A DNA stretch of 64,000 nucleotides, taken from the NCBI RefSeq assembly GCF_014697105.1, contig NZ_JACJRF010000001.1:124001-188000 (forward strand), read 5' to 3'. Shown here one piece after another: positions 40,592-46,833 of the stretch (position 1 is the first letter of the stretch; the number at the start of each line of letters is the position of its first letter). The notes below the pieces were generated by a model that saw only the letters and a list, made by a program, of their open reading frames with translations, searched no databases and had not been told where the DNA came from. The position numbers and the translations under genes were made by a program. The DNA is from Anabaena subtropica FACHB-260 (GTDB lineage Bacteria; Cyanobacteriota; Cyanobacteriia; Cyanobacteriales; Nostocaceae).

Positions 40592-41373
40592 GGCGTTGCA
40601 TAATAAGAATATGAATTAGGGTGCATATTCATGGAATGTCCGCGTTGTAAATCCCATCATATCCGTAAGAACGGCAAACAGAGAGGTAAACAAAACTACA
40701 TTTGTGCAGATTGTAGCCGACAATTCATTGAATACCATAATCAAAAGGGTTACAGTGATGAAATTAAACGAGAATGCCTAGAAATGTATGTCAATGGTTG
40801 TGGTTTTCGTGCTATAGAAAGAGTTAAAAAAGTGCATCACACAACAGTAATATATTGGGTAAAACAAATCGGTAGCCAGTTACCAGAAAATCCCGAAACA
40901 ACTGAAATACCCGAAATAACTGAAATCGATGAATTAGAAACTTTCGTCGGGTCAAAAAAAACAAAATTTGGGTATGGAGTGTAGTTAAATACAACATTTC
41001 GGGGATTTTAGGATGGGTTTTAGGAGATAGAAGTTCAGAAACTTTTCAACAGTTGTGGCAGAGGATTAAAGCGTGGAACTCATATTTTTACGTAACGGAT
41101 GGCTATCCGGTTTATCCATGTTTTATTAATCAAGAAGACCATCTTGTGAGTAAAACTTATATGACACGAGTAGAAGGTGAAAATAGCAGATTAAGACATT
41201 ACTTAGCCCGATTACATAGAAAGACTTTTTGTTATTCCAAGTCCGTAGAAATGCTGGAACTCTCTATTAGATTGTTAGTTTATTATCTCAAACATCGCTG
41301 TATTCCACTGCCAGCCCCAAGAAAGAGCGAAACTGTGGCGATCGCATAATTCATATTTTGATTCAGCAACGCC
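40592..41373 (+). mobile_element. IS1-family insertion sequence, 782 bp
   Basis: Terminal inverted repeats of 26 bp: GGCGTTGCATAATAAGAATA (from 40592) and, reading in from the other end at 41373, GGCGTTGCTGAATCAAAATA, with 22 of 26 positions alike. Length and the single transposase region fit the IS1 family. No 8-9-bp direct repeat is seen at the borders (AAAGGCATG against GAGAAAAGA), so either the flanks have changed since insertion or the element was part of a rearrangement. It truncates a minus-strand gene at 41374. Confidence 0.85.
40631..41349 (+). CDS. IS1-family transposase, joined by -1 frameshift
   Basis: The zero frame (40631-40984, 117 residues) has a zinc-binding N-terminus (MECPRCKSHHIRKNG, YICADCSRQFIEYH) and an HTH (CLEMYVNGCGFRAIERVKKV), then ends soon after ELETFVGSKKTKFGYGV. 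At TCAAAAAAAAC (40952-40962) a -1 slip gives VGSKKNKIWVWSVV and an open frame to 41349 with GILGWVLGD, YFYVTDGYPVYP and TRVEGENSRLRHYLARLHRK. The joined product is 239 residues, full length for IS1. E. coli IS1 uses a similar A-tract slip, so this may be programmed. A simple inactivating mutation cannot be excluded. Confidence 0.82.
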
Positions 41374-41550
41374 GAGAAAAGAACCCAACATTGCAGGTAT
41401 AAGGGTATCTTTCATGCGGCGGCTAATTTTGCCCATAATTAGTCCAACGATCCCACCAACCACAGCCCCGATAACTAAACTAATTAACGTTGCATATATT
41501 AGTTTTGGCAGAATAAAGGTGAAGATAAATTCAAAATTAATCAAATTCAT
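41374..41550 (-). pseudogene. Membrane protein gene truncated by the IS1 element
   Basis: An ATG at 41550 opens a 59-codon stub that runs into the IS1 right end. It encodes an N-terminal hydrophobic segment (LPKLIYATLISLVIGAVVGG) followed by IVGLIMGKISRRMKDTLIP, like the start of a small glycine-rich inner-membrane protein. The frame continues into the IS for 32 codons as an artefact. The rest of the gene should lie left of 40592. There the minus strand holds a 28-codon piece (from 40590 down) ending in ISPRKALEIM, but I cannot show it belongs. Confidence 0.55.
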
Positions 41551-41775
41551 AAATAAACAGTCAAGATTTGTCGAACTTATGCTAAATAGAAGTTTTACTT
41601 AAAAGTTTAATTACTAGCATCATCATAAATTATTAATAAAAATTGCTGTGGTTAGTAAATGTTTGCATAGATACTTTCCTACAAATTCTGGCGGAGCATC
41701 ATTGCACCTGCCGCCCTCTCGAATATCACCAGTATCCTGAAAATGATATTTATATCATTGCTCAAAAGACTTAAC

Positions 41776-42063
41776 CTAATCATTGGGTATTCGCCAATAT
41801 TTTCCCACTCTCACCGACGCTTCACTTAACCCATCCACTAAGTTTTTTAGCACTGTTCTCATAGACGCTTTTGACCACAAGCTCATACCTATCACCAGAC
41901 AGATCACCAGGTGCAACGGTAAAGCCCGCTTTCGTTCTTCATTACTCTGTGTGTCCGCAATGGCTTGTTCAATTGCCTCTGCTCTGATAGCTTTTTCTAA
42001 AGCTTTGAGTACCGTACCTGATTCAATCGCAGGCGAGATCAGTGAGAATTCTTTGAGTTGCAT
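41776..42063 (-). pseudogene. IS4-type transposase remnant (N-terminal part)
   Basis: 95 codons matching the N-terminal domain of Nostoc IS4-type transposases: LKALEKAIRAEAIEQAIADT, then LPLHLVICLVIGMSLWSKAS and VLKNLVDGLSEASVRVGKYW. A complete protein would have over 400 residues, so the catalytic DDE part is gone. The frame stops at 41776. No terminal inverted repeat was found. It sits near the IS1 copy, so the 40.5-42.3 kb zone is an insertion scar region. Confidence 0.75.
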
Positions 42064-42262: not shown

Positions 42263-44518
42263 TCAACCAAGTGATGTGGGAAATCTCATAATAAAAGTAG
42301 TTTTACCATCACCACTCTCGACAGAAATAGAGCCTCCTAAATGTCTGACCATTTTTTGAACTAGTGCCATTTCTAAGCCGGTACCACTATATTTCCAGGG
42401 ATCATTGCTAGAAATATGATAGAACGGCTCGAAGATACGCGATCGCACATGGGTAGGAATTTCTAACCCAGAATTGCTTATACTCATTTGTATAGTGCCT
42501 TCTGTGAGTTGAGCAGACACAGTAATTGATTCACCTCCGGGGGTATATTTGCAGGTATGACTGAGTAATTCGGTGATAATGCGCTCTAGTTCAGTGATGT
42601 CTGTTTCTAAACGTGGAAGTCCTGGTTCAATGATCAAGTTTAGTTGCTGTCGCTGACAACTGGTGAGGTCTCGGAAAGATTCAACGATGGGAGGAAGCCA
42701 GGTTTGGAAGTCGATAGAAATCAGTGTTGGGGGTTCTGGTTTCGCTTGCAGATAAGTAAGTGTTAGCAGATCGTTAATTAATTTGCTTTCTCTGCCACAC
42801 TCACTATGAAGAATCTGTAAGAGTTGGGGTATGATTTCATCTGATGCACCTTTGGGTGAAAGAACACTTTCGAGAGTCTGGGCTGCGAGGCTAATACTAG
42901 TGATTGGTGTCCGCAGTTCTTGGGAAAGTTTTCTGAGAAATTTATTGGTGAGGTTTTCTCGTTGTTCTAATTTTCTCAATCGTGCTTGGTTAGTCGCGTC
43001 TAAATTTGCTTGGCTAATAGCGATCGCACACTGATTTGCTAGAATTTGTACTAGACGAATTTCCGACTCATCAAACATCTGTTGTGTAGGTCTAATCAAC
43101 CACAGATTACCCAGAATTCCCTGTTCATTAAAAATTGGACAAGCTAGTTGGGTGATTACCAATAACTGAGGATGCCAACCAGGAACAATTTCTATGGTTT
43201 GAAAATGCTGTTTTTGTAAGAGTGGCTGATAGATTTCACTAAAGTCGGCAATTTGCCTAGTTAGTCCCTGGTATGTGGGCTGGTTCGTTGCGTGTTCATG
43301 AACTACACTAACTAAGGTACAGTCAGGGTTGTAGAGTTCGATATAGCAAGACTCTAGTTGGAATAAATTCGCTAATTCCTGAATAACTGTCGTCAAAATT
43401 TGGGTTTCATTGGTGCGATCGCGGATTTTTTTTGTGATGTGTAAAACTATATTTTGAAACTTTTCGGTCTGTTTTAACTGGGCTTGCTGCTCCTGTTTGC
43501 GGGATTCTAATTTGGTTTGCAGCTGTTTTATTTGCTGTTGTAATTTTGTTTGTTGAATGGCTATACTCAATTGGGTTGCTAGTTGCTTGAGTAAATCGAT
43601 TTCTATCTGTTGCCATTGGTGGGGTTCATGGCAATACTGGGCAATTAACAGTCCCCATAGGTCTTTTTGTAAGGCAATTGGCACAACCACATTAGCTCTC
43701 ACTTGTATAGAGGCGAGGAAATCTCTTTGGCAAGGTTTGACCCCACTTGCATAAATATCTTCAATAATTTCTAGACAACATCGCCTTTGGCGTTCTTTAT
43801 ATTTGCCGTTGAAGCAAGGATCACGGAAGTTTTTCCCCAATAGGGAAACATCAGAAAATATAGTCGATTCAGCAACAATCGCACCATTGTTCTCAGATTG
43901 TATTCGGTAGATGAGGATGCGATCGCAATTTAAACACAGTCGTAAATCTTTGGCAGTTTGATCAAGAATTGTTTCTAAATCCAAAGATTCGTGGATTCTT
44001 TGGGCAATTGCGGCTAGGATTTTTGTGCCTTCTGCTGGAATTTCTCTGGTTTGTGATACCTGTTTCGCAGTAGTGATATTGCTACTAGTGCCAATCAATC
44101 GATAAATTTTGGAGTTGGTATCTCGTAGTGGTGTAAGAGTTGTACTCCACCAAGTGGTTACTCCTTGAAACTGCAAGCACTGTTCGTAGGAAATAGTTTT
44201 GCCAAAACGCACACACTCAGTATAGTGTTGACGGACTTTAGCCGCATCAACATCTGTTAAGATATCTTCTGGTTTTTTCCCCCGCAAATCCTCTGATCTA
44301 ATCCCCACCCATTGTTCATGGGTGGGATTGAGTGCTGCGTACTGGAAATCTCCATCTTGCAGAACATCTACCACAAATATAGATGTCTGCACAGAGTTAT
44401 ACATACTCAGTAACAACTGTTCACCACTACTTTGTTCATCTACCTGTGTTCCAAAAAGAATATGCGGATGCGACTGTTCCTTCAACTGGATGGTTGAGTC
44501 TACTGGGTTGATATTCAT
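42263..44518 (-). CDS. PAS-GAF-GAF sensor with a degenerate histidine kinase domain
   Basis: 751 residues, soluble. PAS at ~30-150; GAF1 at ~165-325, of phytochrome/cyanobacteriochrome type (QVRANVVVPIALQKDLWGLL, QLATQLSIAIQQ) with Cys263 in KPCQRDFL; a coiled coil; GAF2 at ~370-505; a kinase-like region at ~525-745. The H-box reads LRKLSQELRTPITSI, so the phospho-accepting His is Gln533. The N-box is ELLSHTCKYTP (Asn to His), and the DxGxG box is NSGLEIP. Only the second glycine region (GTGLEMALV) is partly kept. It is therefore probably not an active kinase but a sensor or scaffold. Cys263 followed by Gln, not His, leaves bilin binding open. Confidence 0.85.
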   Translation of the reverse strand: MNINPVDSTIQLKEQSHPHILFGTQVDEQSSGEQLLLSMYNSVQTSIFVVDVLQDGDFQYAALNPTHEQWVGIRSEDLRGKKPEDILTDVDAAKVRQHYTECVRFGKTISYEQCLQFQGVTTWWSTTLTPLRDTNSKIYRLIGTSSNITTAKQVSQTREIPAEGTKILAAIAQRIHESLDLETILDQTAKDLRLCLNCDRILIYRIQSENNGAIVAESTIFSDVSLLGKNFRDPCFNGKYKERQRRCCLEIIEDIYASGVKPCQRDFLASIQVRANVVVPIALQKDLWGLLIAQYCHEPHQWQQIEIDLLKQLATQLSIAIQQTKLQQQIKQLQTKLESRKQEQQAQLKQTEKFQNIVLHITKKIRDRTNETQILTTVIQELANLFQLESCYIELYNPDCTLVSVVHEHATNQPTYQGLTRQIADFSEIYQPLLQKQHFQTIEIVPGWHPQLLVITQLACPIFNEQGILGNLWLIRPTQQMFDESEIRLVQILANQCAIAISQANLDATNQARLRKLEQRENLTNKFLRKLSQELRTPITSISLAAQTLESVLSPKGASDEIIPQLLQILHSECGRESKLINDLLTLTYLQAKPEPPTLISIDFQTWLPPIVESFRDLTSCQRQQLNLIIEPGLPRLETDITELERIITELLSHTCKYTPGGESITVSAQLTEGTIQMSISNSGLEIPTHVRSRIFEPFYHISSNDPWKYSGTGLEMALVQKMVRHLGGSISVESGDGKTTFIMRFPTSLG

Positions 44519-44936: not shown

Positions 44937-45491
44937 TTATTTCAATAATCGGTAAGCATTAATACCTGTGAGGATAGCGACTATTAGCCAAGTAATGGCT
45001 AAACCTGCGACTTCGCCCAAGAACCAGCGTGTGAGGTGACGCAAGATAAAACCTATTGTAGTACCTACAGGGATAGCGATCGCCCAACTAAGGGAATTAA
45101 CTATTATCCATTGCCAAGCCCAAGAAACTGGCTGACGAATCGCCAACCATTGAGCGAGTCCAATACCAAAACCGCCAAAAAAACCTGATCTGGCGCCATT
45201 GAGGAGGCGTAGAGGGAGAAATTCAGCAGGGGGTACAATCCAACCAATTGCACCGACACCAATCGCAGTAATTGTCACCCAGGCTACCAGAGTAAATAAA
45301 ACCCACTTGAGTGTAAAGATATGATCTCGGAGGAGTAAACTTTGAGGTAGGGCGATCGCTAATCCACCAACGGCAGCCTGTATAATACCAATCTCCGTCC
45401 CTTCACTAATTTCCATCCAAAACAAACTTGCCAAAAACCCACCACAAGTAGCTAGAGTCCACAGCCAGAGAAATTTTAACGGTGTTTTCAT
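44937..45491 (-). CDS. Small polytopic membrane protein, unknown
   Basis: 184 residues with about five hydrophobic segments (TLATCGGFLASLFWMEISEG, LFTLVAWVTITAIGVGAIGWI, WAIAIPVGTTIGFIL, AGLAITWLIVAILTGINAY). The pattern FGIGLAQWLAIRQPVSWAWQWI, with a Gln-Trp-Leu motif repeated once, resembles an unnamed family of cyanobacterial membrane proteins. No catalytic or binding motif seen. The gap to the next gene is short and carries repeats of GTCATTAGTC. Confidence 0.6.
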   Translation of the reverse strand: MKTPLKFLWLWTLATCGGFLASLFWMEISEGTEIGIIQAAVGGLAIALPQSLLLRDHIFTLKWVLFTLVAWVTITAIGVGAIGWIVPPAEFLPLRLLNGARSGFFGGFGIGLAQWLAIRQPVSWAWQWIIVNSLSWAIAIPVGTTIGFILRHLTRWFLGEVAGLAITWLIVAILTGINAYRLLK

Positions 45492-45573: not shown

Positions 45574-46833
45574 TCATCTCCTCAATCTCTTAGTTTCTCT
45601 AACTGGTGCTAGTGGCCTAGCGGCTTTAGCGGTAAACATTTCTTGGAATACTTTACGACGGTACGGGGGTGATTCTGGTGTGATGTATCCCCACAGACTT
45701 TCCCAGTAAAAGAAAGAGATACCAAAAAAAGGGCGATCGCGCACAGCTTGTACTTGTTCTCTAATTTGCTCAATCTTAACAGGAGTTCGCAAAGTTCCTG
45801 TTGATATTCCAATAGCTACGGGAATCTGAGTACGAGCAAACTTCACTGCTGGTTGTTCTAATTCATACACAAAACTATTTTTATCATGGCGATAGACTTG
45901 CAAAATCAACTCATCCACCAAACCAGTCTTTACCCAAGTTGCCCAATCTTGTAAATAGTACTTGTAAGCGAAAGCTTGTGAATTAGGAGAAAGAGATATC
46001 TTAGCATTAGGTTTAAGCTCTTTCACCACTTGATGGATTTGTGTCATGAAACGAGTAATTTTATTAGCACGCCACTTCATCCATTCCGCATCAAAATGGT
46101 TACGAGGGGGACTTTTACCTTCATGTTCTTTTTGATAAAGTTCAATGGTGTATGGGTCATATCCAAACTGGACTGGCATTCCAAAATGATCATCAAATTG
46201 AATGCCATCGATATCATAATTAGTAACAACTTCCGTAATTAGCGATAAGATAAATCTTTGGACTTCTGGATGTAAAGCATTAAGCCAAACTAACTTATTT
46301 GTGGGGTCATTGTCACTTTCTTGCGGTAGCATTTCACTAATAGATATAACTCCCCCCTGAGCATTTGTTAACCACTCAGGATGACGCTTTGCTATCATTG
46401 AATCAGGTGGAGCCATAAAACCATATTCAAACCAGGGAATAACACTTAAATTTTTCGGTTTAGCAAGTGCGACTATCTTTGCTAAAACATCCTGTCCCCC
46501 ATGAATGAAATTAAGCAAAGGTTGAGTGTCGGAACCCATAACAGATTTAGCTATACTGCTTTTGTAAAAGGTATAGCCCCGGTTCCAAACTACAGGATAA
46601 ATGGTATTAAAGTTTAGTGCAGATAGTTGGTTGATAGCGCGATTGATACCCCAAGGTACAAATAGTACACCACTGGCAACATTAGTTAGCCAAACTCCAC
46701 GAATTTCTGTTGTAGTTGGTAGATTGCTTTTCTGTTCATAGTTAGACAATGAAGGAACAGACAATCCTGTTATATACAATACTAATTGCACAAACAGCAA
46801 GTAAGAAAAAAAAAGTTTTGCCAACCGATTCAT
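45574..46833 (-). CDS. GHL10-type glycoside-hydrolase-like exported protein
   Basis: 419 residues. A signal peptide covers ~1-26 (LFFSYLLFVQLVLYITGLS). The domain begins with TEIRGVWLTNVASGVLF, then LNFNTIYPVVWNRGYTFYKSS, GIQFDDHFGMPVQFGYDPYT, NKITRFMTQIHQVVKELKPN and GISFFYWESLWGYIT, the GHL10 (DUF187/PF02638) TIM-barrel family. DDHF corresponds to the conserved acidic motif. Likely periplasmic action on a polysaccharide; substrate unproven. The final residues (PLAPVRETKRLRR) read into a CT-rich repeat. Confidence 0.82.
   Translation of the reverse strand: MNRLAKLFFSYLLFVQLVLYITGLSVPSLSNYEQKSNLPTTTEIRGVWLTNVASGVLFVPWGINRAINQLSALNFNTIYPVVWNRGYTFYKSSIAKSVMGSDTQPLLNFIHGGQDVLAKIVALAKPKNLSVIPWFEYGFMAPPDSMIAKRHPEWLTNAQGGVISISEMLPQESDNDPTNKLVWLNALHPEVQRFILSLITEVVTNYDIDGIQFDDHFGMPVQFGYDPYTIELYQKEHEGKSPPRNHFDAEWMKWRANKITRFMTQIHQVVKELKPNAKISLSPNSQAFAYKYYLQDWATWVKTGLVDELILQVYRHDKNSFVYELEQPAVKFARTQIPVAIGISTGTLRTPVKIEQIREQVQAVRDRPFFGISFFYWESLWGYITPESPPYRRKVFQEMFTAKAARPLAPVRETKRLRR

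Follow-up and report, generated by a model that had tools for sequence, protein, structure and literature searches.

What keeps a sensor protein in a genome once the residues needed for its chemistry have been lost, and by what means could it still signal? The question is raised by a gene of the cyanobacterium Anabaena subtropica FACHB-260 (Nostocaceae; assembly GCF_014697105.1), which occupies positions 42263..44518 on the reverse (-) strand of a 64,000-nucleotide stretch of contig NZ_JACJRF010000001.1 (positions 124,001 to 188,000), hereafter the window; the draft genome comprises 5.8 Mb in 104 contigs, of which contig 1 holds the window. Its open reading frame (ORF) of 751 amino acids has the Pfam domain order PAS-GAF-GAF-DHp(HisKA)-CA(HATPase_c), and its product is, as judged from the sequence, a pseudo-histidine kinase, that is, a set of histidine kinase domains predicted to have no catalytic function. 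Probably, this protein has been selected for a non-catalytic role in which it would signal through its DHp face without phosphotransfer, in the manner of DivL.

Kinase domains without catalytic residues

The PAS domain, both GAF domains and both kinase domains remain recognisable because each has a Pfam match: PAS_4 at aa 49-152 (44063..44374), GAF1 at aa 180-321 (GAF; 43556..43981), GAF2 at aa 370-501 (GAF_2; 43016..43411), HisKA, or DHp, at aa 525-591 (42746..42946; family E-value 5.8e-11) and HATPase_c, or CA, at aa 640-748 (42275..42601; 3.5e-19), all on the (-) strand. The preliminary description of this DNA was right that the reading frame, the PAS and both GAF domains are intact. With 42.7 bits for HisKA (curated cut-off 26.9) and 69.7 bits for HATPase_c (26.4), both kinase domains belong to their fold families; among the best 25 of 71 NCBIfam models, none scored over its own cut-off.

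The features of an active enzyme, namely the phospho-acceptor His, the N-box Asn, the G1 motif DxGxG and the G2 motif GxGxG, are absent from these domains. The H-box is LRKLSQELRTPITSI, with Gln exactly at position 533, the former phospho-acceptor site, encoded by CAA (42920..42922, (-) strand; the + strand reads ttg). By alignment, and on the same strand, His654 replaces the Asn of the N-box (LLSHTCKYTP; 42557..42559), NSGLE at aa 682-686 replaces DxGxG of G1 (42461..42475), with Asn682 for Asp and Glu686 for the second Gly within NSGLEIP, and Glu716 replaces a glycine of the G2 box (GTGLEMAL; 42371..42373). The first three alterations had been read correctly before, and the fourth had been missed. 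Among solved structures, DHp-CA is closest in sequence to 2c2a and others of the HK853/EnvZ type, and the cores of HK853, ZraS and CusS were matched by Foldseek over ~220-245 columns, the top Foldseek rows being phytochromes with long alignments and low TM-scores.

Distribution and conservation of the altered site

Relatives of the window protein are widespread, with matches in 37 of 59 relatives' genomes (E<=1e-60) and in 123 of 217 genomes of its family (E<=1e-200), which rules out a strain-specific mutation. Among the matches listed, the nearest named relatives are those of Nostoc parmelioides FACHB-3921 (85% identity) and Anabaena azotica FACHB-119 (79%). The main alignment comprises 131 ORFs from 133 loci (L001-L133), two own-genome paralogues (L002 and L003) having fallen under the score limit; one row (L031) lacks the kinase part, leaving 130 scorable rows. 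At position 533, 90 of these have Gln and 40 have His, and nothing else occurs, the Gln codons being 89 CAA and 1 CAG and the His codons 24 CAT and 16 CAC. Gly684 and Gly714 are retained in all 130.

A core subfamily of 124 rows was defined, consisting of 111 rows of the main alignment, which split into 90 Gln533 and 21 His533 with Glu716 in all, and 13 added rows. The additions are L236, L237 and L239-L248 (12 usable ORFs from 13 loci, L238 in genome G026 yielding none) and a plasmid-borne fusion, L204, whose sequence is identical to that of L201; Glu716 is present in all of them and the N-box Asn in none, with Gln533 in 12 and His in L236. A further added locus, L205, falls outside the core, with His533 and Gly716. 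In total, the core holds 102 Gln and 22 His at position 533 with no third residue, Glu716 in 124/124 and the N-box Asn in 0/124. Alignment with orthologues had been proposed in the preliminary description, which named orthologues with an intact His and intact ATP boxes as the finding that would count against it. That finding is borne out by half: the altered boxes run through the whole core, and Gln533 alternates with a His533 that occurs in 21 of the 111 core rows and in orthologues from 7 of 13 genomes of the window organism's own genus. Not one of those 21 His533 rows, however, keeps the N-box Asn or the G2 Gly.

Order of the losses and switching at position 533

In a tree of the 130 rows, from which the box columns were excluded, the 111 core rows form a single clade (SH-aLRT 100), and parsimony requires 1 change for Glu716 and at least 8 for His/Gln. 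The core part holds 8 maximal all-Gln and 7 maximal all-His clades. A second tree was built with more care from 56 rows chosen to cover the breadth of the family; it likewise requires 8 His/Gln changes, and it rejects a single clade of the Gln rows, a group named after the first tree had been seen (approximately unbiased test, p-AU 2.4e-5).

Position 682 is Asn in 118, His in 5, Ser in 4, Tyr in 2 and Ile in 1 of the 130 rows, and Asp in none. Because 19 rows that combine His533, the N-box Asn and the G2 Gly716 are already without the G1 Asp, the G1 change predates the core clade. The losses were stepwise: G1 first, the N-box and G2 together in the core clade, and His last or switching. The earlier view that three independent features were lost at once has to be given up, as the G1 Asp is gone in 130/130 rows, including the 19 with the other three in place.

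As for the direction of switching, eight gains without reversal cost as much by parsimony as one gain with seven reversals. Two-state models rooted on His give closely similar log-likelihoods (lnL), of -30.68 with two rates, -30.77 with His-to-Gln only and -31.69 with equal rates. In a four-codon model with a free root, equal rates give -63.87 and place Gln (CAA) at the core root with 0.98, and His-to-Gln only gives -66.05, which disfavours repeated one-way gains; the two-rate fit (-69.66) is worse than the equal-rate fit nested in it and had not converged. The fitted models leave the direction undecided, with one favouring Gln at the base of the core. Codon usage dates nothing: CAA encodes Gln533 in 89 of 90 rows, and a nearly equal uniformity is seen at two (316 and 547) of the 11 further conserved Gln positions.

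Position 654 in the 111 core rows is His in 88, Tyr in 17, Gln in 5 and Asp in 1. Transfer of the phospho-acceptor role to His654 was considered and rejected, since no association of Gln533 with His654 was found in 7 independent pairs (averages of 1.0 changing the same way, 0.6 the other way and 5.4 showing no difference). An association of Gln533 with Cys263 was likewise not found in independent pairs (0.4, 0.5 and 6.1). In both comparisons, 7 pairs hold too few informative ones for significance.

Selection on the gene

The ratio of non-synonymous to synonymous substitution (dN/dS) was computed as pairwise Nei-Gojobori sums over 1671 core pairs with dS of 0.1-0.9 (1567 for PAS), which are non-independent. 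Values for the core are 0.155 for the whole protein, 0.088 for PAS, 0.214 for GAF1, 0.139 for GAF2, 0.127 for DHp (aa 505-600) and 0.165 for CA, with PAS (aa 38-152) the most conserved domain (mean pairwise identity 0.862). Outside the core, only 11 pairs are available, with 0.188 for the whole, 0.095 for DHp and 0.146 for CA. Purifying selection on the altered DHp and CA is clear, though slightly weaker than in relatives that keep His, the N-box Asn and the G2 Gly, and the gene is maintained by selection rather than decaying, as indicated by the overall ratio, the fixed residues and the upstream gene order.

Constraint is also evident at position 533. From CAT or CAC, 2 of 8 one-base amino-acid changes give Gln, and the probability of landing on Gln in 8 of 8 cases is ~1.5e-5 by hand, if substitutions are equal and all eight run from His to Gln; the site is therefore constrained, although the calculation does not indicate the nature of the constraint. 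The proposal in the preliminary description of selection for a non-catalytic role is thus upheld, by the occurrence in 123/217 genomes, the dN/dS of 0.155, the universal Glu716 and the restriction of position 533 to Gln and His in 124 rows.

Sensor domains and use of the module

The best matches of GAF1 in solved structures are GAF photoreceptor domains, for example 6oap, 6bhn, 3vv4 and 4fof, which we take to be cyanobacteriochromes. GAF1 of the window protein holds DPCF (Cys235) and PCQ (Cys263), 28 residues apart; the residue after a bilin-binding Cys is usually His, and here it is Gln. Both candidate bilin cysteines are present in 82 of the 111 core rows, and Cys263, found in the window protein and 88 of these rows, is missing in 23. 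In the 12 core ORFs L236, L237 and L239-L248, GAF1 is absent. Ten of them (L237, L239-L244 and L246-L248) have lost PAS as well and keep GAF2-DHp-CA with Gln533; L236 (His533) and L245 (Gln533) lack GAF1 only. Shared light sensing through GAF1 is not supported, nor is a light or redox sensor, as suggested earlier, supported as the role common to a family in which ten core rows dispense with PAS and GAF1 while keeping Gln533.

A protein on plasmid5 of Calothrix brevissima NIES-22 (NIES22_72870, L204:3663-5738), annotated as a TPR protein, consists by Pfam of AAA_35, HisKA and HATPase_c, and its DHp-CA is 69% identical to that of the window protein, with the Gln and the G2 Glu. Because the shortened core ORFs keep GAF2-DHp-CA and this AAA_35 fusion carries DHp-CA, the Gln-bearing DHp-CA module is used as a unit. 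Further observations touch the same domains. NIES22_72870 adjoins a second AAA_35 protein; this one is annotated 'TIR protein', yet Pfam detects no TIR domain in it. The loci L239-L248 belong to genera g56 and g70, nine of them without PAS and GAF1 and L245 without GAF1, all ten with Gln533 and Glu716. In the same genome as the window, L003 (contig C45) is a multi-PAS kinase-like protein, one PAS of which is 53% identical to the conserved PAS of the window protein.

The docking face of DHp

DHp positions 540, 544 and 545 (+7, +11 and +12 from the phospho-site) are Thr, Leu and Ala in 110 of the 111 core rows, a triple absent from the 70 further HisKA domains of the same genome that were aligned. 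The comparison covers three positions, and specificity also depends on further residues. In EnvZ, T250, L254 and A255 are the three major specificity residues, 'TLA' (PMC2991266). As the triples are identical, an OmpR-type regulator is a lead, not a result.

One kinase of the genome, L285 (contig C62), has an intact His, a DHp helix near that of the window protein (HELRTPLTSIRLVAETL) and the triple Thr/Leu/Val. It is presumably PhoR/SphS-like, and is a candidate to share a response regulator with the window protein.

Other HisKA domains without histidine

In the genome of the window organism, PF00512 matched 88 places. Besides the window protein, 70 HisKA domains were aligned (67 His, 2 Gln and 1 Asp), and of the remaining 17 places 13 have the His motif and four (L323, L324, L326 and L337) no readable motif, so that non-His HisKA domains amount to 4 of the 84 read, the window protein included. 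In a published sample, His is missing in 0.9% of HisKA domains (722/76,471; PMC12632262).

The second Gln-type protein (L319:757-2355, (-) strand, contig C42) is a 533-aa ORF with LTQELRTPLTSVLG and an apparently degenerate CA. Its N-terminal half is presumably GAF-like, and a neighbouring ORF resembles what we assume to be IctB. At E<=1e-60, 103 of 148 genomes from the order contain a relative, and the phospho-site in the best 30 loci is Gln in 28, Glu in 2 and never His. The third (L320:820-2235, (-) strand, contig C1 outside the window) is an ORF of 472 aa whose N-box and G1 (DTGIGI) look undamaged. Of the 148 genomes from the order, 68 have a relative of it, and the best 30 loci show Gln (22), Arg (4), Leu (2), Glu (1) and Thr (1), again with no His. 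As the site of the L320 family tolerates other residues, the strict alternation of Gln and His in the family of the window protein is the more telling. The Asp-type protein, L321 (contig C64), is a HisKA-HATPase-like ORF of 681 aa with Asp at the phospho-site (FMSNISDRLRYP) and the G1 sequence VTNTGRGI.

What the protein may do

The selected pseudo-histidine kinase proposed above would retain the domain set of a HisKA kinase together with its surface for docking partners, having lost the chemistry. It may dimerise through its DHp helices and receive input via PAS and, in most species, the GAF domains, and a response regulator or another kinase would bind to helix 1 of DHp, whose docking face is unchanged, with no phosphotransfer, Gln533 locking that face in a permanently unphosphorylated, hydrogen-bonding state. 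Partner binding of this kind is suggested by conservation and the DivL precedent: position 654 drifts among the core rows (H/Y/Q/D), and so does 682 (N/H/S/Y/I), while 533 is only Gln or His. Several points tell against it. The Thr/Leu/Ala triple is found already in 14 of 19 rows outside the core and is, for that reason, inherited rather than new. Gln533 is not obligatory, as His533 persists in 22/124 core rows, and dN/dS of DHp and CA is slightly higher in the core than outside (0.127 vs 0.095 and 0.165 vs 0.146; 11 outside pairs). A response regulator lies within ~6 kb in only 1 of the 30 largest neighbour clusters, in 4 of 70 sources (the window and L134-L202), and mostly on the opposite strand. 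The AlphaFold model (54 sequences; mean pLDDT 78, pTM 0.41) is weak for DHp and inter-domain geometry. Plant CSK binds ATP despite altered boxes (excerpted text of PMC5054060), and the window protein may do so too. A bolder version, which is possible but rather doubtful, holds that cyanobacteria have a class of Gln-box pseudo-kinases, of separate origin in at least three kinase families of one genome and, in the family of the window protein, with at least eight His/Gln switches on a constant docking face; Gln would have gained a working role in this class, either as a reader of phosphorylated regulators or as a phosphatase residue positioning the attacking water.

The principal rival, itself on the unlikely side, is a dedicated response-regulator phosphatase, in which Gln533 would replace His in hydrogen-bonding the attacking water, Thr537 (H+4) is kept and the protein would do nothing but dephosphorylate its regulator. 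All 21 core His rows, and 86 of the 90 Gln rows, retain both Glu534 and Thr537, but Glu534 has changed in 4 of the 90 (3 Gln, 1 Lys), and the Lys534 row, L008 from the window's genus, also has Ile for Thr537. The nucleotide pocket of the window protein is altered, and nucleotide is often a cofactor of HisKA phosphatases. The catalytic water of HK853 is contacted by both H260 and T264, and the phosphatase activity of the H260A variant is diminished (excerpts of PMC5727384); the conserved His is described as non-essential for HisKA phosphatase activity in excerpts of PMC12632262, in which frequencies nevertheless argue against this activity as the general role of pseudo-kinases, and DivL has none according to the excerpted PMC4211667. 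A heterodimer partner or trans-acceptor, phosphorylated by an active kinase in His lineages and only modulated in Gln lineages, would account for the strongly conserved DHp and for His533 in 22/124 core rows despite the altered ATP site; it seems improbable, as a required acceptor should not switch with Gln so often (at least 8 changes) and the docking triple recurs in none of the 70 other HisKA domains, the nearest being Thr/Leu/Val of L285. Native ChrS and HrrS do heterodimerise, and interaction of the ChrS pseudokinase was reported as not observed (excerpts of PMC9491836). Kinase activity may also have survived, at least in His lineages, through an unorthodox site such as a different acceptor residue, but this is quite improbable. 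Gly684 and Gly714 are kept in 130/130 rows, and the G1 change may be tolerable on its own, since a wider group combines NSG in G1 with an intact His, the N-box Asn and the G2 Gly. On the other side, the core has lost both the N-box Asn and the G2 Gly, and Gln is unable to act as a phospho-acceptor. Any change of a G1 or G2 glycine inactivates the cyanobacterial CSK homologue in the excerpted account of PMC5054060. A bilin photoreceptor with a dead kinase as output would fit the photoreceptor-like GAF1 with DPCF and Cys263. We presume that the class would be that of the DXCF-type cyanobacteriochromes, and give this reading very little chance, as both cysteines occur in only 82/111 rows, Cys263 is absent from 23/111 and GAF1 is missing in 12 ORFs. 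Least probable, and rejected as the principal explanation, is neutral decay of a useless kinase with drifting boxes: L238 (G026) does look disrupted, one matched stretch containing 7 stop codons and another 3, L031 lacks the kinase part and positions 654 and 682 vary, but the dN/dS of 0.155, the fixed Glu716, a site 533 with only Gln and His and the mostly kept upstream order argue against it.

Genomic surroundings

The upstream surroundings are given as context only. A 184-aa neighbour without a Pfam match (44937-45491, (-) strand) belongs to a cluster found in 59 of the 70 sources, and a GHL10 glycosyl-hydrolase-like neighbour (45574-46833, (-) strand) to one found in 58; neither is present in 10 of 70. 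The cluster of a further same-strand neighbour, which we take to be a glycolate-oxidase subunit, occurs in 48. No recurrent operon partner emerged among the 30 largest neighbour clusters. In a promoter and terminator scan, site numbers were no higher than in shuffles. Short ORFs lie immediately downstream (window 40631-42063) and are presumably insertion sequence (IS) transposase fragments.

Comparison with known systems

To our knowledge, the history of a pseudo-histidine kinase has seldom been traced along the phylogeny of its family. The present family was not found described in the literature searched, among top-ranked matches and with most subscription journals lying outside the search; as far as those listings show, what is new is the family itself, the legible sequence in which its residues were lost and the confinement of position 533 to Gln and His. 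The family forms a natural series from kinase-like to kinase-dead proteins in which three regulator-docking positions stay constant, and it allows tests of what role remains for a histidine kinase unable to phosphorylate, and of whether a phospho-site Gln is functional or simply a default.

Recurrent replacement of the His is itself not new, being known from CSK, the plant and algal homologue of Hik2, where His has been replaced more than once, by Tyr or Gln in green algae and Glu in land plants (excerpts of PMC5054060 and PMC2677595). CSK resembles the window protein in containing GAF, in its cyanobacterial descent and in altered CA boxes; its G1 is called fully conserved in one excerpt, and elsewhere the second G1 glycine is said to be changed in higher plants. 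The architecture of CSK differs from PAS-GAF-GAF, Arabidopsis CSK still binds ATP (PMC5054060), and, unlike those in CSK, the changes in the window family occurred within one bacterial family and solely between Gln and His. In Corynebacterium, a ChrS variant likewise represents an inactive kinase that still affects signalling, via a paralogous kinase (PMC9491836); it arose by frameshift in laboratory evolution, whereas the window protein belongs to a natural, conserved family. HK853 and EnvZ match the DHp-CA in sequence and fold, and EnvZ has the same docking triple, but the window protein is without the catalytic His, the N-box Asn, the G1 Asp and a G2 Gly. The closest likeness is to DivL of Caulobacter, with sensor domains joined to DHp-CA and a conserved non-His phospho-site; Tyr replaces His there, and the excerpted text reports no kinase or phosphatase activity and binding of DivK~P (PMC4211667). 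Partner binding has been demonstrated for DivL and is only inferred for the window protein. DivL otherwise keeps its H, N, G1, F and G2 boxes, whereas the window family has Gln or His with N, G1 and G2 altered, so that the window protein, lacking the Tyr site and the intact N/G1/F/G2 boxes, does not qualify as a DivL orthologue; with a different sensor set and from a different phylum, it resembles DivL in the manner in which it would act.

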